A stretch of DNA of 64,000 bases from Histomonas meleagridis (taxonomy: Eukaryota; Parabasalia; Tritrichomonadida; Dientamoebidae). The notes under the pieces are model-generated. The model was given only the letters and a program-made list of their open reading frames with translations. It did not search any database and was not told where the DNA came from. The translations under genes and the position numbers were made by a program. Positions 42,436 to 60,627 of this stretch are shown in pieces. Position 1 is the stretch's first letter. Each line of letters begins with the position of its first letter. The stretch spans positions 496,001 through 560,000 of the forward strand of contig WSYJ01000164.1 in assembly GCA_020186115.1 (NCBI GenBank), written 5' to 3'.

Positions 42436-43650
42436 ATGGAAAAACTCCAAGCAACAAACGGAAAAGTTTTGTTTGCTGTTGTGAAACAGGCATTACGTCT
42501 TTCCGGAATTGAGTACACAAAAGCTAATCCAAATGCAATGTTGGTTTGGACAGATACAATGAAGGTTGATTATTTTCAGCAAATGATGCCATGGCAAGTT
42601 ATAAATAGAATCCCATGGGCTCGAACAATGTGTCGCAAGGCACCATATGTAAGACTTATCTGTAGGACAGCAAAATATTTTCCGAATTTATATGATTTTA
42701 TCCCAAAATCATTTATTTTACCTCTAGAAAGAAATGAATTTCATAAGGCATACAAAGAATCACCAAAAAAATACATTTATAAACCAGATAAAGGTGCACT
42801 TGGTCATGGAATAAAGGTAATAAATTCCGAAAAGGAAACTCCAAAATCACGGCATTTAGCTGTAATTCAGGAGTACATAGATTCTTTTACAATTGATAAC
42901 AAAAAGTTTGATCTTCGAATATATGTTCTTATTTTATCAGTTAAGCCACTTACAATCTACGTGTATCGTGGCGGTGTAGCACGCTTTTGTAGTGAAACTG
43001 TTGATACCAATTCTAAATTCTCTTTACTTACAAATACCGCAGTTAACATCAAAAACCCAGATGCCATTCCCGACAAAATGACCCAAATGTTGTCTGATGT
43101 TTTTGAAAAGCTTAAACAAATGGGTTATGACATTGATGCTCTTTGGGAAAGGATTGACAGGGCTATCGTTCTATCGGTCATATCGGCCTACGGTTTCCTG
43201 TCAAAATTCGAAGATGAAGAATGTCCTAATCTTGGGTATTCACGATGTTTCCAAATTGTTGGCTTTGATGTATTGCTTGACAAGCAACTTAAGCCATATG
43301 TTTTAGAGATTAATTTCCGACCATCGTTAAAATGTAATACTATGAATTCACATACATTAAAACAGAACATGTTAATGGATGCACTAAAGATCGCAGCGCC
43401 ATTGATGCCATTGCAAAGGCTTAAGGAAACAACGGAATTTCCAACAGATGCAAAAGAATTCAAAAAATTCATGGAAAATCACAAGGATACAATACAACAA
43501 ATAAATGAGCTTAGAGCTAAAAACGAAATCGGCAATGGTTTCAAGAAGGTGTTCCCTAATGATAATTTTCCAAATTATCAAACGGTTCTAAAATCAGTCA
43601 TGAACATGCCAAACATTTCAACTTGTGATTACAACTTACCAATATCGTAA
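42436..43650 (+). CDS. Tubulin tyrosine ligase-like (TTLL) protein
   Basis: A protein of 404 residues with the ATP-grasp fold of TTLL enzymes, which add glutamate, glycine or tyrosine to tubulin tails. Visible motifs include KYIYKPDKGALGHGIKVI (ATP-binding lysine and glycine-rich loop), IQEYIDSF, KKFDLRIYVLILS (K-x-D-x-R-x-Y), YVYRGGVARFCSE and the metal site YVLEINFRPSL. The pattern KFDLR...EIN is typical of polyglutamylases, but the chemistry cannot be told from sequence alone. The short C-terminal tail (QQINELRAKNEIGNGF) has no extra domain. It would modify flagellar and cytoskeletal microtubules. Confidence 0.88.
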   Translation: MEKLQATNGKVLFAVVKQALRLSGIEYTKANPNAMLVWTDTMKVDYFQQMMPWQVINRIPWARTMCRKAPYVRLICRTAKYFPNLYDFIPKSFILPLERNEFHKAYKESPKKYIYKPDKGALGHGIKVINSEKETPKSRHLAVIQEYIDSFTIDNKKFDLRIYVLILSVKPLTIYVYRGGVARFCSETVDTNSKFSLLTNTAVNIKNPDAIPDKMTQMLSDVFEKLKQMGYDIDALWERIDRAIVLSVISAYGFLSKFEDEECPNLGYSRCFQIVGFDVLLDKQLKPYVLEINFRPSLKCNTMNSHTLKQNMLMDALKIAAPLMPLQRLKETTEFPTDAKEFKKFMENHKDTIQQINELRAKNEIGNGFKKVFPNDNFPNYQTVLKSVMNMPNISTCDYNLPIS

Positions 43651-44649: not shown

Positions 44650-46133
44650 CCAAATTTAAAATTGTCAAATTTATTCTCAACCTGATGCTTTCTCAATACC
44701 AAAAAGAATTTGTATCATTTATTAAATGGCAAATCGAACAAAAAATATTTGATATTAATGGTAAATATGTTTCTCATGAAGATTGAATGTTTAATATTTA
44801 TTTTTGGAATTCATCTAAAATTAATGAAACAGCACTTCATTGGGCAACACGCCAAGGTCATTCTGAAGTCACAAAAGTTCTTCTTGAACAAGAAGGAATT
44901 GATATTAATGCTAAAGATATTTATTTGTTTTATTTAAAATTTATTTGAATAATTTAGTGTTTCAAAATAATATTTCAAAATTATTTAAATTATTTTTTAC
45001 ATCACTTATATCTGCATCTAGAAATGGTCATACAGAAATTGTTAAATTACTTCTTGAACAAGAAGGAATTGATATTAATTCTAAAGATATTTATTTGTTT
45101 TATTTATTATTTATTTTAAATAATTATTATTTCAAAATAATTTTTGGAAATTATTTAAAATATTTAATACAGCTCTTATGGGAGCATCTTATAATAATCA
45201 TACAGAAATTGTTAAATTACTTCTTGATCAAGAAGGAATTGATATTAATTCTAAAGATATTTATTTGTTTTGTTTGATATTTATTTTAATAATTTATTAT
45301 TTCGATATAATATTTGGAAATTATTTAAATTATTTGCTACAGCACTTATGTATGCATCTAGAGATGGTTATACAGAAATAGTTAAATTACTTCTTGAACA
45401 AGAAGGAATTGATATTAACGCTAAAGATATTTATTTATTTTATTTAATATTTATTTTAATAATTTTATATTTCAAAATAATATTTGGAAATTATTTAAAA
45501 TATTATGGACATCACTTATGTGGGCATCTAAAAAAGGTTATACAGAAATAGTTAAATTACTTCTTGAACAAGAAGGAATTGATATTAATGCTAAAGATAT
45601 TTCTTTGTTTTATTTAATATTTATTTGAATAATTTAATATTTCAAAATAATATTTGGAAATTATTTAAAATATTTAAAACAGCACTTATTAGAGCATCTA
45701 AAAAAGGTTATACAGAAATAGTTAAATTACTTCTTGAAAAAGAAGGAATTGATATTAATGCTAAAGATATTTCTTTGTTTTGTTTGATATTTACTTGAAT
45801 AATTTATTATTTCAATATAATATTTGGAAATTATTTAAATTATTTGAAACAGCACTTATTTTAGCATCAAAAAATAATGATATAGAAATAGTTGAATTAC
45901 TTCTTGAACAAGATAATATTGATATGGATGCTAAAGATATTTCTTTGTTTTATATAAAGTATATTCAAAAAATATGATATTTCACATAAACATTTGGAAT
46001 TACTTATAAATATATAAAACAGCGCTTATAATAGCATCCGAAAACAAAGATGCAGATATTATTCAGTTGTTTGTAAACAAAATTCGACAACAGAAATGTA
46101 ACCACATAATAAAATTAAACGATTCTAAAGGAT
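44650..46133 (+). pseudogene. Ankyrin-repeat gene broken by regular out-of-frame spacers
   Basis: From 44650 a short N-terminal stretch (MLSQYQKEFVSFIKWQIEQK in one frame, with an in-frame TGA soon after) leads into eight ankyrin repeats. Each repeat reads TALxxASxxGxTEIVKLLLE followed by QEGIDINAKDI. The EQEG positions repeat every 170 bp exactly (44886, 45056, 45226, 45396, 45566, 45736, 45906). Each repeat of 93 bp is followed by a 77-bp AT-rich spacer with stops; because 170 is not divisible by 3, neighbouring repeats are in different frames. Canonical trichomonad splice signals (GTAYGT, ACTAACACACAG) are absent. It is either a decayed tandem array or has unusual processing. Confidence 0.65.
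44855..46020 (+). repeat. 170-bp tandem array (ankyrin unit plus conserved spacer)
   Basis: Seven consecutive units with identical 170-bp period. The spacer core TTTCAAAATAATATTTGG plus AAATTATTTAAA is as well conserved between units as the ankyrin-coding part (by eye about 86-90 per cent). The minus-strand locus at 18240-18640 carries the same unit and spacer. Confidence 0.9.
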
Positions 46134-47985: not shown

Positions 47986-48005
47986 AAAACCGTAATCACG
48001 GTTTT
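47986..48005 (+). promoter_or_regulatory. Inverted AAAACCGT/ACGGTTTT element before the FHA-like gene
   Basis: AAAACCGT (47986-47993), AATC, ACGGTTTT (47998-48005) form an inverted repeat ending 16 bp before the ATG at 48022. It combines two copies of the AACCG/CGGTT core found before many genes of the window. It suggests expression by the protist's own transcription system, which is inference. Confidence 0.5.
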
Positions 48006-48021: not shown

Positions 48022-51000
48022 ATGGTGGAACTGGATGAACACATTCCTGAATATCGCATTAATATTAAACCATCAAATGTTTTAAATGAGGAAACACAGG
48101 AAATAATGGAAGGATATATAATAGAAGTATTGAAAATAATTGATATTTCTCAAGATGGACAACTTACTCACATGTATAAAACTGTATTTGAACAAGTTGT
48201 AACTCCATTTATTTATACTATTAGTGAACAAAAAGCAAATAATATTCATTTATATGAAATTTTGCAAAAAGTTCAAGCACAAATAGCATACCAATTAACC
48301 CAATTAAAAACTGATTCTAGTCAAACACCAGAAAGCAATGAAAATAAGAAATTAAGTGAACAAAATATTGAAACCGAATTATCAAGAGGATGGAGTTTAT
48401 TTATTCCAGAATTTGGAGAATTGTTAATTTCACACGATGGAAATATTGTTTTGGACACGCAATTAAAAAAATCCATTCAAATTAATGCTCCAAAACAAGT
48501 AATTTTATATAATACAAATTTAACACATATTGAAATTGAAGCATCATCTGTACTTCTTATTGGAAAGACGAAGTCGACAATTAAATCATTAGTTTTTAAA
48601 GGAAATATAAAATCTCCAGAATTAATTAATACTTTATTTATTGAACAAGAAGCTGAACTAACAATCGAAAAAATAATGTTAGATAATGTGTTTTTGTTTA
48701 ACTTTGGGAAACTTAATATTAATAATATTGATTTAAATAATGGATATTTATTTAATATTGGAACAATTAAAACTTCGGATAATACCATTTTTAAAGATAT
48801 ATTATACTTTTATAACAAAGGTATAATAGAAATCTCAAAAAAGTTAATCATAGGAACATCCACAATTTCTAACGAAGGTATTATCAAAGGATCAATTTTA
48901 AAATTAATAACATCAGAATTATTTAATAATCAAGGAACGTTAGAATTAGAAAATAATTTAGATATTGTTGGATATGATATAATAAATCATGGTAAAATAA
49001 ATGGCAAAACTGGAGAAATAAATATAATTTCTGATGATTATGTACAAAATGAAGGTGAAATTATTGCTTCAAATGTCAAATTCCATTCTAAAGAAATTAA
49101 TTTAATAAATGGAATCGTTGCAGGACAAGTGTTTTATGGTAAAGGTAATAAAATAACAAATAAAGCAAATATAAACTTTCAAAAAGGAATTATCAATGGA
49201 ATATTTCTTAATATTTCTCAATTAACAACATTTGAACACGAATTAGAATTAATTGGGCCTCAAACAATGATACAAAATTCATCAAATGGTATAATTAAAA
49301 CATCTGAAATTATAAGTAATGCAATTATAGGATGTATAGAAAACGGAACTTTTAATTCTAAAACAATTAATATTAAAAAACATTTACAAATCAATAGTAA
49401 ATTACCACAATTAACAAAAATAAAAATATTTTCAGAAGCAAAATTATTAATAAATCAAACATCTGAAGTACCTGAATTAACACAAATAGAAAATGAAGGT
49501 ATTACATGTATATTATCAAAGATTCCCAAATTATTTATAATTAAAAATAGTATAACAGGTCATTTACAAATTAAAACAAATTCCATTTTAACTAAAATTA
49601 ATGATCTTTTTGGATTAAAAGGAAAAATTGATATTTCTGCTTCTTTACCTAATCTTACGAAATTAAATTTATATTCTGGTGCAATTTTTTCAGTATGTGC
49701 AAATGCAGATTTTTCGAATTTAAAAGAATTAAATGTTTATTATGGTGCAAAATTTTTAGCTGATGAAAATACAAAATTCAACGGACTTAAAATATTAAAA
49801 AATTCTGGAATAACAACTTTTAAAACGCCATTAATGAATTTAGAAGTTATTAATAATGAAATAAATGCTGACTTACATTTGTTAGATCGAGTTCATATAA
49901 GAACAGATTTGATAAATAATGGGAAAATTTTATTTAGACATAAAGATGATTATAAAAATTATAATGAACGTGATTTGTTTATAGGAAAACACTATATTGG
50001 AGGTGAGAAATCTATTTTGAAATTTGAAAACAAATGTAATATTTCATGTGATTTTATAAATAATGGAATTATATATTCTCTTCAAAAAATGGACTTCCTT
50101 TACATCCCACCAAAACTTGGAAAATTTGTTTGTGAAGAAATATCATTTGAAATATCTGAAACTTCATTAAATTTTGATAATTTTAAGCCAATACTTAGTG
50201 GAGGGAAGAATTTGGAAATTATTGCAAAAAATGGAGTTAAATTAATAAATTCAATCAATTGGAATGTTAATTTATATATTGAAGCGCCATCATTAGAAAT
50301 AAATTCAGATTTAACAGTAATATCATTAACAATAAAAACCCAAAAATTCAATAATACAAAAACTATATCAGCAAAACATTTTATTAATATTGAAACAAAT
50401 GAATTTACAAATACAAGTGGCCGCCTTCAAACATATGGAGATATTAATATAGAAGCAAAAGGAAGATTTATAAATACAGGTGGAGGAAGAATTGAACATA
50501 ATAAACCAGAGATAATATATTATTCAACATGGACCAATTCGAGATTAAATAGACAATCTCAAACAATATATAGAGATGTATATTATCCAAATTTATCCTT
50601 AGCTGGAGTAATAACATGTGGTACTTTTATGAATATTATTTCAGGTTCATTTAATAATAGTTTTGGAATAATAAATTCTTCAGATGATTTAAATATTAAA
50701 TCATCAGGAGAAGTACGGAATGAATGTGGCTTAATTTATAGTAGAGGATCAACAACAATAAATGGGACAATATTAAAAAATGGATATAGAAAAGGAAGGC
50801 AATTAATTAGTGGTGTTAATCCTAATGCCCCAATTGAACATATAACAACTGAGTCATTATCCATTTTAGGTTTAGTTAGATATAATAGAAAAGGTGTTTG
50901 TTTTGGAGATGTATGTTATAATGGAAGAAGAATGACTATCGATGATTTTATGAATAATTATCCAACAAAACTTCAAGAATTTATGGGACTTAGTCGTTCT

Positions 51001-54000
51001 GGACATAATCGAATATATGTTCCTTGTAGTAGAGCTAGCTTTTGTCCACCGGCAGGTATTTATAAAGCAGGTGAGGCCAAACATGGAGGTTTATATCTTG
51101 GTGGAGAACATAAAAAAACTTATAAAACTATCACTGGATATCAATCTCAAGTTCAATATTCTACAGAATCGAAATATCCTGGATATATATTTTCTTATGG
51201 TGATTTAAAAATATGTATGAAAAGTGATACATATTTAGGAACTATAGTTTCGAATGAAAATATTTATATTCAAGGAGTTTTACAAAAGTCAATTAATCAT
51301 GCTGATCGAGGATTATTAATAGCTAAAGGAAATGTAAATATTGAATTACGGAAAGCTGCATTAGAACAATTAGCAATACAATCCGAAAATATATATATTA
51401 AATTAATCGAAGAAATGATAATTAAAGGAATTATTGAACCGGTTTTAATGCCAAGTGGTCAAGTAATACAACTTATTAATCTTCGAAAGTTAGGAAATCA
51501 AATTGGTTTTCTTATAGATGAAAAAACGTTTTCCGAACAAGGAATGAGATTTACTTCTCCAACTGGATTAGTACCAATTTCTTCAAAACAATATAATGAA
51601 GGATTTTCAATATATAAAACTTCTGAATCTGGTTTCATTAGTTATAAACCTGAAACAAAATATTTCATTCCAACTCTTCAATCAGGTATATTAAGTCATT
51701 TGACTACTTTAATATTAACACCTCTTGAAGGTAGAAATATATTATTAACAATTGATTTAACAGGAAAATTAAAAAAACAAGGATCGAAAATATCTAATTT
51801 ATTTAGAGGTATGAAAAACATTGTATTACCTGATGGAAATCCAGCAATTTTGTTTGATAAAAGTTCAAATCCAGATGTCGAAATAGAAGCAGAAGGAGAG
51901 AAAATGTTAGTTCCATTATTTGATCCTTATTTAATATGTAACACTATTTCTAAGTTGAAAAATATTATTAAAGCTCAACAATTAATTTCTATTCATAATC
52001 TAGAAAATATACATTTAGCACCTGGAAAAATCAATTTAGAAAGTATAGATTTTACATTAGAATCAGAAAAAGAAATTCGAATTGCATCTGAATTCACATA
52101 TTCTGATTCTCATTATAAAACAGGAGTTGATCCTGTCGATATTGAAGTTCCTGGTACTTTTATTGCATCAGGTAAAAAAGGAGTAACACTTGAAGGTGCA
52201 AATATTAAAGCTAAAAATATACAAATAACAAGTTCTAATGGTAATATTATTGATTTAGAAATGGAGTTAGATCCAACTCTTACTTTTGGTAAACAAAATT
52301 GGGTTAGAGAACAAAAAACAATAACATCATCTCTAAAAGCAAAAGATAATATACAATTAAATGCACCTAAAGGAATTATAGATCAACATGGTACTAATTT
52401 AGAAGCTGGAAATGGAGGAATAACTTTTGAAGCACAAAAACATATTATTAATCCTGCATATGAAAAAAGTGAAATTGCACATTGGGCTAAAAGGACATTT
52501 ACTTGCATGAACTTTAACACACCTAAAGGAGCTAATATTAAAACATCAGGAACAATTATATTTAAATCAGCTGATACTTCTTTAGTTGGTGCTGAAATAA
52601 TTGCAAATACTATTAGTAACCCAAATGATGGCGATTTTTCAATCATTCCTGCATATGGTTCACAAAATAACTTCAGTATGACATATAAAAATGGTGGACT
52701 ATTTGGTCTTGGAAAATCTTCTAGAAACATTTATGAAACTCGAGATTTGATTGAAAGGGCACAAATAATTACTGATCATTTTGAATCTATAGGTAAAGGG
52801 ACATGTGTTTTTGAAGGCACAATTATTAAAGCTCTTGATATGTCTATTACGAAAAATTTGATTGAAAAAGCAGCATATTTACATAGTAAGAGTAATATTG
52901 TTCAACATTCTTCAGGATTTTTTGCACCTAAAATTAAAGGTGATCCATTTATTGAAGCATTAAAAGGTGTTGAAAACATTATAAGTTTTGGAGATGCAAT
53001 TCCAACAGCTATGAACATTATTGGTACTGGAGCACAAACATTAACACATGCTTTAACATTAGCAAACATTGCGAAAAATCCAAATCCGATAATAGCAATA
53101 TCACAAATCTTTTTAAATAGATTTGTTACTGGTTTTGTATATAATAATTCTACGACAACTATTCAACGAAAAGAAAGTCAACCAATACAAAGTCAAGTCG
53201 AAGTTGGAATTCTAAAAATTAACAATGATCGTACACATCTTGAAGGAATATGGAAAGTAAATAAGGCAAGTATTGAAACAGGAAAAATAACTTCAGATTC
53301 TCCAAAACATACTATTGAACAAAGTTCTAAAACAAAAGGATTTAATATAAGTTTATCACCAATAGCTTTTATAGAAGCTTGTATCTCTCCGACTATTGGA
53401 ACATTACCAAATATATCAGTATTTGAATCAGAAGTTAGTTTTGATCAAACTAATCATTCTAATATGATTATTGAAGCAGGAGATTTATTTATTCGATGTA
53501 ATGATGCCATATTTAGAGGGTCAACAATACGTGCTAATGTAATTGAAATGTTAGTTTCAGGAAATTTGACTATTGAAACTATTAAAGATTTGTTCAAAAG
53601 CGAAAGTAATAATACACAAATTTCAAGTAGTTTATCATCTATAAATAGTTTAATTCAAGGAGTTAAAGTAGATAATTCTATATTAAATCCAAAGTTAGGA
53701 GTTGTCCCAACAATTCGTATAGCTGATGAAGAATGTTTACAAGAAAGAATTAATAAAGTATCACAACTTATAGGAATCGAAAAATTCTATTTGAAAGTCG
53801 GTGAACTTCTATATAATAAAGGAGCAATTATTAGTGATGGTGTAATATCTGGAAAACGTATCGATGAAAAAGTTGATGAAAAAACTGAAAAACATCAAAA
53901 AGTTATTAATCCATGTATTGGTGAACTTGTAACAATGATTGGACAAGTTAATGAATTTAAAGAAGTTCAACAAAAATATATAACTCAAAGAGTATTAGAA

Positions 54001-55008
54001 GGTGTTAATAGTGAAAATGCTATTGAAGAAGCTAATGAAATCACCAAAGAAATTGTTGATAAAGTTTCGACTTTCATTAAACGCCTTCAAGAAACAGAGA
54101 AAAAAGTATCAAATGAAGTTAAAGAAATTGTTGAAAATACAAAAGAAGTAAAAGTTTCAGATAATATGAATGAAACACATATACAAACAGAAATCTTAAA
54201 ATGTTGTCATATAAAAGAATTCGAACAAATGCTAAAAAATACACATTATGAACAAAATAAGGTAATTGAAGAATATAAAAAGTTCAGTCAAACATTAAAA
54301 CCAAAATTAAAGAATTACTTCACTGAAATTATGAATACAATTGGAGATTTTTGTCATCATATTAATGACCATATACAAAAAGCATATGAAATTGGTTATC
54401 TTTATATGTATTTAGATGATCCATTAATTGATGAGTTTAATCGAAATGAAATCAAAGAATCAATAATTAATAGAGAAATATCAGATCGAAATAATAACTT
54501 AATCGAAAGTGCTGAAACATTATTATCTATAATTGAAATTATAGGAATTACTAAATGTAATTTTTTAAAGCCGACTATTAAAAATATGAAATTTACTCAA
54601 ATAACTAAAAATGTAAAACCTGTTAATAATACATTACTAAAAGGTGAAGGAAAATTTGATACTTACGCAAAGTTAAAAAAATGGAACAAAGAAAATGGAA
54701 TTGTTGGAATGGAAGCACATCATATGACATCTAAAAAACATATGCAAAAATTAGGAATAAATCCAAACGATGCTTATGCTATAAATGTACCAAAAGAATT
54801 ACATAGAAAAACTAGAACTTTTGGAGGAAGAAATAAAATAGCTTCGAATTTACCAAATAGGTCTGAATTAGCTGCTGATGTATTCGACTTGAGGAAAATA
54901 TTAATAAATGAGGGTAAGTATAATCAGCAATGGAAGGAAATACTAATTAATTACACAAGAAAACAAAAGGAATTATTCCCTCAGATTTTTACGAAGATAG
55001 GAAAATAA
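48022..55008 (+). CDS. Filamentous haemagglutinin/CdiA-like protein with C-terminal HNH-type nuclease motif
   Basis: A single intact frame of 2328 residues. Residues 1-130 are polar and helical, with no signal peptide or recognisable TPS secretion domain. From about 130 to 1500 the sequence has the repeated I/N/G-rich strands of a beta-helix. Haemagglutinin-type repeats are clearest at about 790-925 (FTNTSGRLQTYGDINIEAKG, GSFNNSFGIINSSDDLNI) and 1387-1470 (LEGANIKAKNIQITSSNG). A hydrophobic stretch lies at about 1650-1710 and a coiled coil at about 1930-2060. The last 100 residues have an EAHHM motif with the histidine pair at 2233-2234 and a following LHRKTRTFGG, as in nucleases of bacterial polymorphic toxins. 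Base composition matches the host. Toxicity and transfer are inference. No immunity-like gene follows. Confidence 0.75.
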   Translation: MVELDEHIPEYRINIKPSNVLNEETQEIMEGYIIEVLKIIDISQDGQLTHMYKTVFEQVVTPFIYTISEQKANNIHLYEILQKVQAQIAYQLTQLKTDSSQTPESNENKKLSEQNIETELSRGWSLFIPEFGELLISHDGNIVLDTQLKKSIQINAPKQVILYNTNLTHIEIEASSVLLIGKTKSTIKSLVFKGNIKSPELINTLFIEQEAELTIEKIMLDNVFLFNFGKLNINNIDLNNGYLFNIGTIKTSDNTIFKDILYFYNKGIIEISKKLIIGTSTISNEGIIKGSILKLITSELFNNQGTLELENNLDIVGYDIINHGKINGKTGEINIISDDYVQNEGEIIASNVKFHSKEINLINGIVAGQVFYGKGNKITNKANINFQKGIINGIFLNISQLTTFEHELELIGPQTMIQNSSNGIIKTSEIISNAIIGCIENGTFNSKTINIKKHLQINSKLPQLTKIKIFSEAKLLINQTSEVPELTQIENEGITCILSKIPKLFIIKNSITGHLQIKTNSILTKINDLFGLKGKIDISASLPNLTKLNLYSGAIFSVCANADFSNLKELNVYYGAKFLADENTKFNGLKILKNSGITTFKTPLMNLEVINNEINADLHLLDRVHIRTDLINNGKILFRHKDDYKNYNERDLFIGKHYIGGEKSILKFENKCNISCDFINNGIIYSLQKMDFLYIPPKLGKFVCEEISFEISETSLNFDNFKPILSGGKNLEIIAKNGVKLINSINWNVNLYIEAPSLEINSDLTVISLTIKTQKFNNTKTISAKHFINIETNEFTNTSGRLQTYGDINIEAKGRFINTGGGRIEHNKPEIIYYSTWTNSRLNRQSQTIYRDVYYPNLSLAGVITCGTFMNIISGSFNNSFGIINSSDDLNIKSSGEVRNECGLIYSRGSTTINGTILKNGYRKGRQLISGVNPNAPIEHITTESLSILGLVRYNRKGVCFGDVCYNGRRMTIDDFMNNYPTKLQEFMGLSRSGHNRIYVPCSRASFCPPAGIYKAGEAKHGGLYLGGEHKKTYKTITGYQSQVQYSTESKYPGYIFSYGDLKICMKSDTYLGTIVSNENIYIQGVLQKSINHADRGLLIAKGNVNIELRKAALEQLAIQSENIYIKLIEEMIIKGIIEPVLMPSGQVIQLINLRKLGNQIGFLIDEKTFSEQGMRFTSPTGLVPISSKQYNEGFSIYKTSESGFISYKPETKYFIPTLQSGILSHLTTLILTPLEGRNILLTIDLTGKLKKQGSKISNLFRGMKNIVLPDGNPAILFDKSSNPDVEIEAEGEKMLVPLFDPYLICNTISKLKNIIKAQQLISIHNLENIHLAPGKINLESIDFTLESEKEIRIASEFTYSDSHYKTGVDPVDIEVPGTFIASGKKGVTLEGANIKAKNIQITSSNGNIIDLEMELDPTLTFGKQNWVREQKTITSSLKAKDNIQLNAPKGIIDQHGTNLEAGNGGITFEAQKHIINPAYEKSEIAHWAKRTFTCMNFNTPKGANIKTSGTIIFKSADTSLVGAEIIANTISNPNDGDFSIIPAYGSQNNFSMTYKNGGLFGLGKSSRNIYETRDLIERAQIITDHFESIGKGTCVFEGTIIKALDMSITKNLIEKAAYLHSKSNIVQHSSGFFAPKIKGDPFIEALKGVENIISFGDAIPTAMNIIGTGAQTLTHALTLANIAKNPNPIIAISQIFLNRFVTGFVYNNSTTTIQRKESQPIQSQVEVGILKINNDRTHLEGIWKVNKASIETGKITSDSPKHTIEQSSKTKGFNISLSPIAFIEACISPTIGTLPNISVFESEVSFDQTNHSNMIIEAGDLFIRCNDAIFRGSTIRANVIEMLVSGNLTIETIKDLFKSESNNTQISSSLSSINSLIQGVKVDNSILNPKLGVVPTIRIADEECLQERINKVSQLIGIEKFYLKVGELLYNKGAIISDGVISGKRIDEKVDEKTEKHQKVINPCIGELVTMIGQVNEFKEVQQKYITQRVLEGVNSENAIEEANEITKEIVDKVSTFIKRLQETEKKVSNEVKEIVENTKEVKVSDNMNETHIQTEILKCCHIKEFEQMLKNTHYEQNKVIEEYKKFSQTLKPKLKNYFTEIMNTIGDFCHHINDHIQKAYEIGYLYMYLDDPLIDEFNRNEIKESIINREISDRNNNLIESAETLLSIIEIIGITKCNFLKPTIKNMKFTQITKNVKPVNNTLLKGEGKFDTYAKLKKWNKENGIVGMEAHHMTSKKHMQKLGINPNDAYAINVPKELHRKTRTFGGRNKIASNLPNRSELAADVFDLRKILINEGKYNQQWKEILINYTRKQKELFPQIFTKIGK

Positions 55009-55033
55009 AGTTGGAAAAAGTTTTGTAATTTGT

Positions 55034-55055
55034 ATGAAAATGATATCATTTTCAT
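55034..55055. repeat. Perfect 22-bp palindrome downstream of the FHA-like gene
   Basis: The sequence from 55034 equals its own reverse complement (half-site ATGAAAATGAT). It lies 26 bp after the stop codon. As RNA it could fold into a hairpin and mark a 3' end; as DNA it could be a dimer binding site. Confidence 0.75.
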
Positions 55056-55294
55056 GTAATAAATCTTTAGCTGTAATAATTGTTTTTTCAAAATCTTTAT
55101 TGAAATTGAATTTCCAAATTTTAACTTTTATTGAAATGTTTTTTCAAAATTTTTTTAATTTAGATATTCTAATTGATATGAGCGGACACTAAATATACAT
55201 TACTAATTAAGAAATATGTTTAAATATTTTTTAAAATGAAAAAAATTTGCTGTCGTTTGCCTGAATAAGTCACTTTTCTATCGGAATTATAAAA

Positions 55295-56522
55295 ATGAAT
55301 AGACTCGAAACTCTTCGAATGTTGGAGCAAATTGTTTTTAAATTAAATTATGATAATATTAAATTATCAATTCAATCGACCTTAAACATACTTAAAGAAA
55401 ACAATTTTTTAAATACATTTAATCTAATTATTTCTCGATTAGTTTATTCTTCGTTTATTTCTCATATAAACATTGATTCATATTTGTGTTAAATATTTAT
55501 ACAATTTGCAATTAAAGGAAGATGAAATTAAGAAGAATGTTCCCAATCTTATAAATACTTTTTCCAAATATTTACTAATGTTGCATCAACAAGAATCATA
55601 CTACCTTCTTGAGAAGTTAGTAGTGGATTAATTGACGTAAGCTTTGTTGAAAATACAGGGACGTTTTATTTTGATCATCATTTCAAAATGAGAAATGGAT
55701 TTGGTATTAAAGTCCCTTTTTATTCTGAATTTACTAGAAATATAAAAGAACTTTCAAAAAATGATTGAGCACTTCATTAGAAATTAATTAGAGAAGGACA
55801 TAATCCAAATGAAATATCAAAAATAATTCGGAATGATGAAATAGAAAAACTTCAAGAAATATCATCACGAAATTATTTTGATTTTAATCAAATAATTGAA
55901 CCATCACTTTATGAAAGATGTTCATTTATTAACAATTGGAAAGTTACATTAATTGATTATGCAGCATTTTTTTCAGCAGTTAAATGTTTTAAATATTTAC
56001 TTCTGAATGGTGCTAATGTAGAAGACACAGGTAAATATGCAATTGCAGGCGGAAATGAAGAAATCATTCATTTATGTGAACAAAATCATTCGTCATTTTC
56101 AAAAGCATATGAAACAGCAATTAAATTCCATCGAAATGAGATCTTTCATTATTTTTATGATAATAAAATCGGAAAATTTGAAGGAGTTAAAAAAATTCAT
56201 TTATCCTCAAGTGGCTGTGGTCCAGATTATTCTTATCACCTTCAATCTTATGTTCCATATATTTCTAATTCTAGAAATACCAATGATTTTCATTTGCCTA
56301 ACACATCTAATTCTAATGCATCTGGTTTTAATTTCTCTAACATATCTTCACTTCAATCAATTTTATATTACTCCTGATCTAAATAATTTTACTAGCAATT
56401 CAGTTGAGGATAGCATTTTTTTTCTTGGTAAAAAATGTATAAAACATAGCATTTTCGAAATTTTAGCCTTCTTAGAAAAGGAAGGGTTGAAAACGGATGT
56501 TCTTTTAAAAAAAATTGATTGA
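55295..56522 (+). pseudogene. Decayed DUF3447 gene
   Basis: The first 65 codons from the ATG at 55295 (TLRMLEQIVFKLNYDNIKLS onward) align with the start of the intact gene at 12162. Later pieces in other frames continue the alignment: ESYYLLEKLV, GHNPNEISKIIRNDEIEKLQ, IDYAAFFSAVKCFKYLLLN, KYAIAGGNEEIIHLCEQNHS and a C-terminal IFEILAFLEKEGLKTD. Several frameshifts and stops separate them, so no full protein can be made. It lies directly downstream of the FHA-like gene. Confidence 0.8.
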
Positions 56523-57121
56523 CGTATTTAAGATTTAAAACTTTACTAAAAACATTTATAACTTTGCATACAAACTGTTTTAATTCACTTTTTTATTGGC
56601 TGATTATTTTGCCTTTTTAAGTGAACATGTTATTTTTTAACACTTCATAGATGAATTAAATGGAAATTCATCCAAGCATTACCAATAATTTTTTATTGGA
56701 TAACTGTTGCTAAAATAGTTACAAATCAAAGGCAAAAAGTGCGACTTCAAGAAATTTCTTGAACAAATTTTATCATGTTCAAATAAAAAAATAAATTTAA
56801 CATTGGAACAATTTTTAATTTCAAATATATTTTGATACATTAGAATATCTTAATTATTTATTGAGTTTTGTATTTCTTTCTAAAGACGAAGGGAAAGCAT
56901 ATATAAAATTGAGGCAAAATGATATTGTCTTTGGTCTAATTGTATGAAAAGGTGAAATTTTTCACAGTTTAATTGAAAACAGATTATCTTTCGTTTTGAT
57001 ATCAAAAAGTTGAAATTTACAACCAACAAGCCGCCTCATTTGAGCCCGCTTTTTGAATTAAATACAGCGATAGGAACCACTTTTATCTCAATTAAAATCT
57101 CCCATTCAAGAGCTCACCCAG
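56523..57121. other. Intergenic region, about 600 bp
   Basis: AT-rich. A small hairpin CCAATAA-TTTT-TTATTGG lies at 56682-56699. An open frame at 57010-57195 overlaps the next gene and is judged a shadow. Confidence 0.4.
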
Positions 57122-57742
57122 ATGGAAAACGGGAACATTGGCAATATGATATCTGTGATAATAAAACCGGACTCATCACAGAGCAAAATTGTTAACGTTA
57201 AAAATACGGATCCTATATCAACATTATCAAATTATTTAGATAACCCAGAAAAGAAGCATTTTTATCTTTACAATCAAAATCTTGTTTCGCCTGCTTTCTC
57301 GTTCGGGTACCATGGCATTAAGGATAATTCTGAAATTGAAGTTTTCACAATACCTGGTCCCAAAAAGAAAATTCCTGATAAGTACCAAATGAAAGTTGTC
57401 AACTACCCAACACTGAGTCAACTACGTGAGTGTAGCAAACAATCATTTCATCTCTTTGGTCAAAAGCCAGATTTTGAGTCTATCCAAAGAATCGTTGAAA
57501 ATATGACAAACCCAGACTACATCAATGAAGCCGCCAAAATCCATGATCAACACTTTGACAAGATCGAAGGTAATGCTCCTTGTCATCGGAAATTAATCAA
57601 CCGATTTCTGAATTACGATGATACAAACGAAACACAAACGCTTGGAATCAAAAGCAATTATACAGCAGACACACCTAGCGAACCCTCAAAAGATGCACTT
57701 CCATGTTTTTGGAAAGAAAGATGGAAAAAACTCGATCACTAG
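57122..57742 (+). CDS. Protein with N-terminal ubiquitin-like fold
   Basis: A protein of 206 residues. Residues 8-78 have the pattern of a ubiquitin-like domain: an ISVIIKPDSSQSKIVNVKNT hairpin, a helix (ISTLSNYLDN), then HFYLYNQNLVSPAFSFGYHG and SEIEVFTIPG, corresponding to the family's strand-turn-strand ending. The rest (about 85-206) is helical and polar and ends in CFWKERWKKLDH. I do not recognise the C-terminal part. It may be an adaptor in ubiquitin or autophagy-type pathways, but that is a guess from the fold. Confidence 0.6.
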   Translation: MENGNIGNMISVIIKPDSSQSKIVNVKNTDPISTLSNYLDNPEKKHFYLYNQNLVSPAFSFGYHGIKDNSEIEVFTIPGPKKKIPDKYQMKVVNYPTLSQLRECSKQSFHLFGQKPDFESIQRIVENMTNPDYINEAAKIHDQHFDKIEGNAPCHRKLINRFLNYDDTNETQTLGIKSNYTADTPSEPSKDALPCFWKERWKKLDH

Positions 57743-57878: not shown

Positions 57879-59612
57879 ATGCGACCGTTAATTATTTTTG
57901 AAATGTCAACAAAAAGAACTTTTTTCCTAAGCACAATTGAAATGGCTGTTGACACGACTATTATGAACAAAAGGGTTTCTGGTTTCTTGTGTCTAATACG
58001 TCAAAGCAATAACTTTCAATTAATTTGGTCACCATTTGATCCATCTACAGGAGAATCAATTTTTCAACCAATAAAAATTCCCACCACTGATCAATGGGCT
58101 AAAAATGGTCCCTTCATATTTGATTGTAAGGAAGTTTTTTTCATTCAGTTCAGTGAAAATCCATTAACTCTCACAATATTCCGAAATAATGAAGGAAACC
58201 ATACTTACCTCATACCAGAATCAGAGTTTATATCGGTAGTTCAGCTAGTTGAACAACTTATTCTTAATGGTATTGCAGTTCCATGTAAAGAACCTTCATA
58301 TTCCCTTGAATTTTATAAGCGATGTCGCGAAGGTGTTTATTCATATACTCCACCTCCACTTAAACTTAATTACAAACCATATACCACACTTTCTAATTTC
58401 TGGTTAGATGTTCATCACTTTTTCACCGAGCTCATGATATATTTAGATTCCAGTGGTACCGTACCTCTTGATACCGACTTTCCATTAGCATCCGCTGCAC
58501 GAGCCTGCCATGAATTAGTTATGAATGAAATCAATGATTACTTATCAAAAGTTCCGCAGTATACCCAAATCACCAAATCCGAAATTCCAACTTTATTTGA
58601 TTCCAATGGCCGTCTTATTGATCCCGAGCTTTTTTTACATCGCGCATATCATTCCGGAATAGAGCCCTCTGCGCTTCCTGATCTGTTACCATTTGTCTTT
58701 GGGGTCTATTCATATGATTCCACTTCCGAAGAACGTGAAAAAATACGCGCAGACCTTCAAAACGAATTTTCTATTTTGAAGTCACAAGTCGAATCGAAAC
58801 TTCCGATACAAATCCAAAACAGCAAAAAGACAACTGACGATTATCGGGTCATCTCACACGATGTTGCGCGTACAGATCGAGGACTTTCATCCTTTAAGAA
58901 CCTTAAAGGAACAGGTCCGAAGATCTTAGCTGAACTTTTACATGTTTCAACACAATATGATCCAGAACTTGGTTATTTGCAAGGGATGAATGATCTTTTT
59001 GTTCCGATAATGTTATCATATATTCCATTATGGAATGATGATAGTGAGCCCATAAACGAAAGTGGGGAAATCATTGATTGTAGTAATGTTCTATATATCA
59101 TTTTTTGGTGTTTCCAACGAATGTTAACAAAGACTAAACAATTGGAATTACTTGCGGACGTCACTGAATGCTGCAAGAAAAGGGCCGCAACTGTTATACA
59201 TTTGTTATCATCTGTATCGCCAGTCGCCGCGATTTGGATGAGGAATAGAGGTATGCAAGACCTGCTATGGTGCTATTCCGATTTCTTGCTGATGTTCAAG
59301 AGAACGTACGCTGACGTGTGGAGCGTTTGGCTTAAGTTTAGCTGCTCACTAAAGCCGGACAAGTGGCTGTGCTACTTCACGTGCGCAATGATAATCGCGT
59401 GCTTCGAGAAGTTGACGTTGGAAAAGGATACGTCGCTAACGGCAATGATGGACGCATTCCCAAAAAGAGTGAGCGAAATGGACGTGGAAACTGTGGGAAG
59501 CATCGCGTTGTGGCTATGCGAAAAGGTACCGCTGCCTGACGACGAAGAGATTGATGACGGAGATGAGGAAATTGAGAAATTCGACTTCTTCGAGGCATTA
59601 TGCACAAAATAA
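57879..59612 (+). CDS. TBC-domain Rab GTPase-activating protein (TBC1D15/Gyp7-like)
   Basis: A protein of 577 residues. The N-terminal 250 residues resemble the lipid- or Rab-binding region of TBC1D15-type proteins (GFLCLIRQSNNFQLIWSPFD). The TBC domain starts near 320 with ISHDVARTDRG (the arginine finger region, I-x-x-D-v-x-R-T) and LGYLQGMNDLFVPIML, where YxQGMND carries the catalytic glutamine. It continues with WCFQRML and WSVWLKFSCSL. It would switch off a Rab. A GACCGTTAA element lies just after the listed ATG (at 57882), so translation may begin at residue 9 (ATG at 57903). The 3' third of the gene is clearly richer in G+C than the 5' part. Confidence 0.88.
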   Translation: MRPLIIFEMSTKRTFFLSTIEMAVDTTIMNKRVSGFLCLIRQSNNFQLIWSPFDPSTGESIFQPIKIPTTDQWAKNGPFIFDCKEVFFIQFSENPLTLTIFRNNEGNHTYLIPESEFISVVQLVEQLILNGIAVPCKEPSYSLEFYKRCREGVYSYTPPPLKLNYKPYTTLSNFWLDVHHFFTELMIYLDSSGTVPLDTDFPLASAARACHELVMNEINDYLSKVPQYTQITKSEIPTLFDSNGRLIDPELFLHRAYHSGIEPSALPDLLPFVFGVYSYDSTSEEREKIRADLQNEFSILKSQVESKLPIQIQNSKKTTDDYRVISHDVARTDRGLSSFKNLKGTGPKILAELLHVSTQYDPELGYLQGMNDLFVPIMLSYIPLWNDDSEPINESGEIIDCSNVLYIIFWCFQRMLTKTKQLELLADVTECCKKRAATVIHLLSSVSPVAAIWMRNRGMQDLLWCYSDFLLMFKRTYADVWSVWLKFSCSLKPDKWLCYFTCAMIIACFEKLTLEKDTSLTAMMDAFPKRVSEMDVETVGSIALWLCEKVPLPDDEEIDDGDEEIEKFDFFEALCTK

Positions 59613-60009: not shown

Positions 60010-60627
60010 ATGCAAAGCCAAACAGTCCCATCATATAAAATCGTGATGGTTGGATCATCTACAGTCGGAAAATCTTCTATCGTACAAAGGCTCGTTCAAG
60101 GCGATTTTTCAGCAGACGGAACAACAACTTGTGGTGCTGATTTTTATACATTTACTTGTCCTGTTCATGGAGAAAACGTAAAACTTATGATTTGGGATAC
60201 AGCAGGACAGGAACGTTTCAGAGCAATTTCTAAAAGCTATTTTAGAAACGCAGTTGGAGCAATTCTGGTTTTTGACATAACAAATCTCTCGTCTTTTGAT
60301 GACCTTACTTCTTGGCTAAGTGATTTCCAAAGTTTAGCCTCACCAAATGCTTATGTTCTTCTTGTTGGGAATAAGGTAGATCTGGAAGAAAGCAGACAGG
60401 TTGGAGCCCAACAAATTAAAGACTTTGCAGACAGGCATCATTTAGAAGTACTCGAAACGTCTGCGCTTCGAGGAAAAAACATTCAAGAAGCATTCACAAG
60501 ATTAGCTTTTGAAGTAACAGCACGTGTAAACAATGGACAAATTATAATTAGTCAGATGCCAAACAAAGCTACACAGCCCACTCTTTTTGTAACCGAGCCA
60601 ACTAAAAAAAACAAATCATGTTGCTAA
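60010..60627 (+). CDS. Rab-family small GTPase
   Basis: A protein of 205 residues with every Rab motif intact: P-loop GSSTVGKSS, switch I with TTCGADFYTF, WDTAGQERFR, GNKVDL and ETSALRGKN. The C-terminus KKNKSCC carries the two cysteines for geranylgeranylation. The closest general type is the Rab5/21/22 or Rab8-like group, but a subfamily cannot be assigned by eye. Switch I has TTTCGAD where most Rabs have TIG-x-D/E-F. It would direct a step of vesicle traffic, and it sits between a TBC RabGAP gene and a TRAPPC11-like gene. Confidence 0.93.
   Translation: MQSQTVPSYKIVMVGSSTVGKSSIVQRLVQGDFSADGTTTCGADFYTFTCPVHGENVKLMIWDTAGQERFRAISKSYFRNAVGAILVFDITNLSSFDDLTSWLSDFQSLASPNAYVLLVGNKVDLEESRQVGAQQIKDFADRHHLEVLETSALRGKNIQEAFTRLAFEVTARVNNGQIIISQMPNKATQPTLFVTEPTKKNKSCC

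Follow-up and report, generated by a model that had tools for sequence, protein, structure and literature searches.

Domains of bacterial polymorphic toxins are known to have been transferred to eukaryotes, and the same survey catalogues [AG]HH and [SG]HH motifs in toxin families of the HNH/EndoVII kind, with Imm30 found beside the [SG]HH families (Zhang et al. 2012, PMC3482391). Polymorphic toxins also occur in symbionts of flagellates, as in Bodo saltans, whose Paracaedibacter-like symbiont encodes three such systems, one of them with an AHH nuclease domain at its end (PMC8163844). Parabasalids use laterally acquired antibacterial enzymes (PMC6299479; PMC12612818), and growth of the poultry parasite Histomonas meleagridis (Parabasalia, Tritrichomonadida) depends on bacteria (PMC8529796). 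Here we describe a gene of this protist at 48022-55008 on the forward strand of a stretch of 64,000 nucleotides (the window; contig WSYJ01000164.1, positions 496,001 to 560,000), whose product, P0001, is by sequence comparison the homologue of a bacterial contact-toxin, nearly complete and encoded on a chromosome of a parabasalid. Its homology to bacterial proteins spans most of its length, with a conserved body, a variable tip and a tip shared with bacteria, and its uninterrupted frame resides on a Histomonas contig. We regard it as an alphaproteobacterial CdiA/FHA-type toxin homologue, likely acquired laterally and likely kept under selection, with a tip predicted to be a nuclease for use against bacteria, and we give this reading as a whole a probability of about one half.

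The intact frame of 2328 codons claimed in the initial annotation holds: P0001 (2328 aa) is encoded by a single open frame with zero in-frame stops, whereas 223 and 331 stops appear when this DNA is read in the other two forward frames. The gene and its parts are as follows.

48022..55008, forward strand: complete FHA/CdiA-type polymorphic-toxin homologue gene, 2328 codons in one open frame, with homologues found
48022..48381, forward strand: N-terminal region, residues 1-120, aligning from residue 9 just behind the apparent signal peptide of the bacterial proteins
48382..53946, forward strand: conserved body, residues 121-1975, from the alignment to relatives
53437..53616, forward strand: best stretch of Fil_haemagg_2 (PF13332), residues 1806-1865, by Pfam
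53947..54621, forward strand: variable linker ahead of the tip, where identity to relatives falls to about 10-20%
54622..55005, forward strand: C-terminal tip, residues 2201-2328, with homologous tips in bacterial toxins of the LXG, HINT and FHA types
54718..54726, forward strand: HHM of the tip, invariant across four aligned tips
54802..54804, forward strand: second invariant histidine, within H..T.T of the tip, from the four-tip alignment

Like CdiA-type toxins, P0001 has a haemagglutinin-repeat beta-helix body. The profile PF13332 matches it above the Pfam cut-off, with an E value of 7.7e-7 for the full protein and 3.3e-12 for a 600-aa piece, so that the haemagglutinin-type repeats first read from the letters are backed by an FHA profile match; no other family passed the cut-off in the Pfam scan of P0001. 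Residues 1318-1834 were modelled largely as beta-helix with good confidence, the predicted fold being HxuA-like by VIA-align, and a Foldseek search with the body gave no match at E<=0.001. A second trait of CdiA-type toxins, a conserved body with an exchangeable C-terminal tip, is also found. In 80-column blocks, the identity of P0001 to its relatives P0002 and P0003 is 24-64% within the body and falls to 9-22% past roughly residue 2000, and over residues 1160-1975 it shares 45-50% identity with six relatives, 38% with P0004 and 29% with P0005. Three recognised kinds of tip occur on this one body: among 9 distinct family proteins, 4 carry PF21111, 1 a WHH/Colicin-DNase tip and 2 the HHM tip, and none was recognised in the other 2.

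The protein searches were word-based and limited in sensitivity, and further relatives are therefore likely. The first gave 4 proteins among 7946 candidates, and one with P0003 gave 6, query included, among 3337. In a first scan of genome contigs 23 pattern stretches held no relative, 28 stretches from viral contigs held none either, and plasmids searched with P0002 and phages searched with P0001 gave no match. The second genome scan gave 3 loci, namely two contigs of uncultured alphaproteobacterial metagenome-assembled genomes (MAGs), L001 (CALXQQ010000023.1) and L002 (CAJODB010000043.1), plus a fragment of 80 residues from a Holosporaceae MAG (L003). Since P0008 is located on L001 and P0002 is 96% identical over 682 columns to the fragment on L002, both proteins are taken as bacterial. 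A CdiI gene (E 3.6e-33) overlaps the end of the L001 toxin gene, itself broken by an in-frame stop, and on L002 the toxin fragment comes after an Ntox8 piece and a gene of the DUF2750 family; L001 and L002 are polymorphic-toxin loci. Because the relatives with loci are bacterial and have apparent signal peptides and immunity genes, transfer presumably ran from bacteria to Histomonas, and we infer a donor among the alphaproteobacteria, possibly a Holosporaceae-like protist symbiont. The homologues in alphaproteobacterial MAGs with a CdiI neighbour, the homology of the tip to bacterial tips and the identity to a Histomonas protein on a 1.14-Mb contig, described below, bear out the initial annotation in its central claim that a protist chromosome carries a contact-toxin-like gene of FHA/CdiA type. 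Two side observations on these loci were made by eye. Proteins of L001 (870-2687 and 12993-14627) that match no Pfam family look alike and flank the contact-dependent inhibition (CDI) pair, possibly as accessory genes, and at 10001-11037 of L003 the 80-residue toxin-body remnant adjoins what resembles a piece of an IS110-type transposase.

In the family tree, Histomonas has no firm place among the other rows; its branch length is 0.52, with 0.23 for P0006, 0.28 for P0003, 0.38 for P0002 and 0.70 for P0010. The branch of P0005 is long, and Histomonas and P0004, both of biased composition, do not group together. P0004 (2976 aa, 9 contigs, 12.5% Asn) begins with about 200 Asn/Ser-rich residues where relatives have a leader and bears NDNSINKS repeats at the position of the tip, and may, at a guess, be another eukaryotic member of the family.

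The tip itself is shared with bacterial toxins of other architectures. A profile built from three bacterial tips, with P0001 left out of the build, gives P0001 73.5 bits (E 2.2e-21), against 10.5 bits for the best of 2000 shuffled P0001 tails, and when it was run on 512 stretches of the window only the gene-bearing one was found among the matches listed (down to E 7). Twelve positions are identical in all four aligned tips, and the leave-one-out count of invariant columns kept is 12/20 for the P0001 tip and 12/21, 12/17 and 12/16 for the bacterial ones. The motifs HHM, H..T.T and R..LA.D..D...I place the P0001 tip in a family for which no curated name was found. P0009, with a body 92% identical to that of P0008 (the available sequence begins inside the body), bears a homologous tip, 31% identical to that of P0001 over 101 residues. 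Among plasmid records this type of tip has 3 matches, an LXG toxin of Bacillus licheniformis (WP_080626817.1, plasmid pBL027-1), which is followed by two Imm30 genes (Imm30 by Pfam), and two Streptomyces longwoodensis HINT toxins. A tip search of the protein collection had no match at E<=1 among its 221 candidates. Its paired histidines, and the toxins in whose company it is found, lead us to predict that the P0001 tip is an HNH-like nuclease.

At the other end of the protein, the alignment of P0001 with P0002 starts at PEY; P0002 has a leader-like hydrophobic stretch ahead of it that has no counterpart in P0001, where an in-frame stop lies upstream of the ATG with 23 codons intervening. The best 11-residue hydropathy window scores 1.71 in P0001 (residue 33), 2.42 in P0002 and 1.83 in L001 (both at residue 10), and as the P0001 stretch sits behind PEY, in the shared part, hydropathy alone gives no clear split. 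The lack of a signal peptide stated in the initial annotation is thus supported by the alignment, in which no leader precedes the region shared with relatives, and not decisively by hydropathy. The lack of a TPS domain also stands, with no hit to PF05860 at E<=1 in P0001 or its N-terminal piece, subject to the correction that the two scannable bacterial relatives (P0002, and L001 in the first part of its gene) have none either (E<=0.1). As to a CdiB/TpsB partner, the locus holds no second open reading frame (ORF) of >200 aa between 43651 and 57121, and 0 transporters were found among the 6 other ORFs scanned on the 16-kb L001 contig; a partner elsewhere in the MAG genomes is possible. If the signal peptide was lost at transfer, P0001 would be made in the cytosol and would stay there unless another export route exists.

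The deposited annotation of Histomonas contains part of this gene. The search with P0003 returned the H. meleagridis protein GPJ56_005798 (P0007), present on 2 contigs, the longest of 1,144,546 bases; the two contigs probably represent the two sequenced strains. The genome is based on Nanopore and Illumina reads; both strains sequenced had been monoxenised with E. coli DH5alpha, and the gene models are from AUGUSTUS (PMC8529796). GPJ56_005798 is identical to residues 988-2028 of P0001 at 1041/1041 positions, and then runs into the ORF at 57122-57742.

50983..54105, forward strand: sole portion of the toxin gene within the deposited model GPJ56_005798, residues 988-2028, then joined to 57074-57742

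The start of the model lies 987 codons too far downstream, and a predicted 2968-base intron takes it out of the frame, so that the tip is lost. We take this intron (GTATCA...GATAG) to be an artefact of the gene predictor, because the open frame leads on into a tip that has bacterial homologues; its ends are presumably also a poor fit to the trichomonad splice consensus. GPJ56_005798 (window 50983-57742) would then be a fusion of two unrelated genes that hides most of the toxin homologue. On this evidence the Histomonas gene is intact and yet wrongly annotated, its identity firm and its function predicted.

The flanks are eukaryotic by Pfam, with a tubulin-tyrosine ligase gene (42436-43650) on the left and RabGAP-TBC (57879-59612) and Ras family (60010-60627) genes on the right. 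Closer to the toxin homologue lie the following features.

44880..46029, forward strand: ankyrin-repeat array upstream, its frame broken in each unit, dead or intron-bearing
47988..48003, forward strand: candidate host-type promoter element, AACCG and CGGTT, 34 and 23 bases before the ATG
55295..56522, forward strand: ankyrin/DUF3447-type gene remnants downstream, a local contrast for decay

The array consists of 6.8 copies of a 170-base unit, each made of one ankyrin repeat and a spacer of about 70 AT-rich bases. Since 170 is not a multiple of 3 the frame rotates, so that the array is either dead or interrupted by a small intron in every unit. Pieces of the downstream remnants match a gene at 12162 of the window (E 6e-9 and 5e-7, as single comparisons), and 7 ORFs of at least 40 aa, the longest of 161 aa, overlap the interval 55009-57121.

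Several features bear on whether the toxin homologue has been kept. The host-like AT-rich composition reported in the initial annotation is confirmed, with a GC content at third codon positions (GC3) of 0.107 (host mean 0.212; three other AT-rich host ORFs, 0.105-0.131) and a codon usage that correlates at 0.97 with that of 24 window ORFs. By codon position its GC content is 0.366/0.312/0.107, compared with 0.19-0.24 in five intergenic stretches and 0.24-0.25 in the two flanks. P0001 keeps 132/157 of the family-invariant columns in the set without P0005, P0004 keeping 0.78 and the other six rows 0.89-0.96. For the host-type promoter, six related 5-/6-mers occur in 13/27 upstream 70-mers, this gene included, and in 8.9% of random non-coding 70-mers; the case is weak, as the motif was picked on the same genes that were counted. 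Within 70 bases of starts, AACCG occurs in 8/27 upstream stretches (1.7 expected) and CGTTA in 8 (1.8 expected), and the two may possibly form a Histomonas core promoter element. Simulated decay of two L001 pieces gave a mean of 117-137 in-frame stops each (minimum 94-111), to which we attach no weight because the simulation assumes an L001-like donor and an equilibrium GC of 0.09-0.10, below that of real non-coding DNA. Taken together, the 0 stops beside a decayed ankyrin-type gene, the codon-position GC, the column retention, the branch of 0.52 and the upstream motifs argue that the gene is likely kept under selection. Between the domesticated weapon and the fossil still under selection offered at the outset, we lean to a kept, functional gene.

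In the pathway that we envision, transfer into Histomonas was accompanied by loss of the signal peptide, and the long beta-helix rod would carry the HNH-like nuclease tip. The rod could reach engulfed or invading bacteria through phagosome leakage or unconventional release, where the tip would degrade their nucleic acid, and the host might be spared by compartment or by target specificity, no immunity gene being recognised alongside. Nuclease activity and a bacterial target are predicted; antibacterial use is plausible because Histomonas is bacterium-dependent and parabasalids already employ acquired antibacterial enzymes.

A number of observations weigh against this reading. Neither the alignment nor the hydropathy scan found a signal peptide in P0001, the leader of P0002 and L001 being unmatched. 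No immunity gene was recognised 3' of the toxin homologue, as initially claimed, in a scan of 2/7 ORFs that gave no Pfam match at E<=1, both of them being remnants of ankyrin genes. A live cytosolic nuclease with neither a recognised immunity gene nor an export signal would be a danger to its owner. The likeness of the EAHH/HRKT tip to toxin nucleases stands by homology to bacterial toxin tips (73.5 bits) and not by a nuclease profile: Pfam gives only two sub-cut-off, non-nuclease matches at E<=1 and NCBIfam none, the Bacillus and Streptomyces tips likewise falling below every profile cut-off, and the AlphaFold2 model of the tip is unusable, with a predicted local distance difference test (pLDDT) score of 43.5. 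Column retention in P0001 (77/90, 132/157 and 169/217) is below that of P0002, P0003, P0006 and P0008-P0010 in every set, and the lowest of 7 in the 169/217 set. The last 188 codons correlate with host usage at 0.85, compared with 0.94-0.96 for the other pieces, perhaps a size effect. Finally, host-like codon usage could equally come from an AT-rich donor and so does not fix the age of the transfer.

Part of this evidence fits a doubtful though quite conceivable explanation, that the gene is a recent passenger: a toxin gene from an AT-rich alphaproteobacterium would have entered lacking its signal peptide and immunity gene and would now be silent and still undecayed. Its somewhat low retention of invariant columns, the lack of a recognised immunity gene and the missing export signal would be expected of such a passenger, an AT-rich donor would yield an identical composition, and the decayed remnants next door indicate a region that tolerates dead genes. 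However, the nearest relatives found are merely 45-50% identical over residues 1160-1975, the leader is gone and yet all of the sequence behind it is intact, and a host-type motif, weak as evidence, lies upstream. It is decidedly unlikely that the gene was kept for its beta-helix body, in the role of adhesin or scaffold, and that the tip is only a bystander. The body makes up most of the protein and P0004, the possible second eukaryotic member, bears repeats instead of a recognised tip, but the P0001 tip keeps 12 of its 20 bacterial-invariant columns, HHM and the second His included, which is in line with the bacterial tips. A very improbable third explanation is a legacy directed at the host, a toxin of a protist symbiont that was used against the host or to addict it and now acts as decoy or regulator; we know of no addicting symbiont of Histomonas, and the profile scan found no immunity domain within P0001. 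Its precedent would be the Bodo saltans symbiont, whose three polymorphic toxin systems were proposed to addict the host (PMC8163844), and the L003 fragment does belong to a Holosporaceae MAG. Bacterial contamination or a chimeric join, flagged in the initial annotation and suggested by the bacterial-type sequence, a culture with bacteria and one chimeric contig with phage genes reported in the genome paper, is scarcely credible and was rejected, given the tubulin-tyrosine ligase, TBC and Ras family genes on the two sides, the host-like composition and codon usage, the presence of GPJ56_005798 on two contigs, the longest of 1.14 Mb, and E. coli as the sole bacterium at harvest (PMC8529796).

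Returning to a retained antibacterial gene, a bolder extension that we hold to be unlikely is that eukaryotes have domesticated near-complete CDI-type toxins from protist-associated alphaproteobacteria, the leaderless rod of Histomonas with its live nuclease tip being an intracellular antibacterial weapon and P0004 a second, independent capture of this family. Toxin domains were already known to enter eukaryotes; a near-whole contact-toxin on the chromosome of a protist, with both its rod and its tip, would be weapon capture in a new form. The gene is a concrete test case of a bacterium-dependent parasite possibly controlling bacteria without an immunity protein, and the finding suggests alphaproteobacteria as a source of genes and sets right a deposited model in which the gene is hidden. 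Among the literature matches listed, no title or abstract opening named such a gene, and Trichomonas is not mentioned in the excerpts of Zhang et al. (PMC3482391).

Of the known systems, the alphaproteobacterial CDI-like toxins (L001/P0008 and P0002) come closest, with a homologous body (46% identity over residues 1160-1975) and, as in P0001, no match to the TPS domain, on the evidence of P0002 and of the L001 gene in its first part; unlike P0001, P0002 and L001 have an apparent signal peptide and a tip of the PF21111 family, to which L001 adds a CdiI gene. P0009 shares both the body family and the homologous HHM tip, and differs in its bacterial-type body. With the LXG toxin WP_080626817.1 the homologous C-terminal tip is shared, but there it rides on an LXG carrier of the type VII secretion system (T7SS) with a PT-TG pretoxin domain and two Imm30 genes after it. 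The CdiA/FhaB two-partner exoproteins, and HxuA by fold, have haemagglutinin repeats and a beta-helix in common with P0001, whose gene in contrast is eukaryotic and for which no TPS match, partner or signal peptide was found. The Trichomonas NlpC/P60 hydrolases (PMC6299479) are likewise laterally acquired antibacterial genes of a parabasalid, yet they are peptidoglycan enzymes of a different architecture. The cases of Zhang et al. (PMC3482391) are also bacterial conflict domains in a eukaryote, whereas Histomonas carries a near-whole exoprotein, body and tip together.

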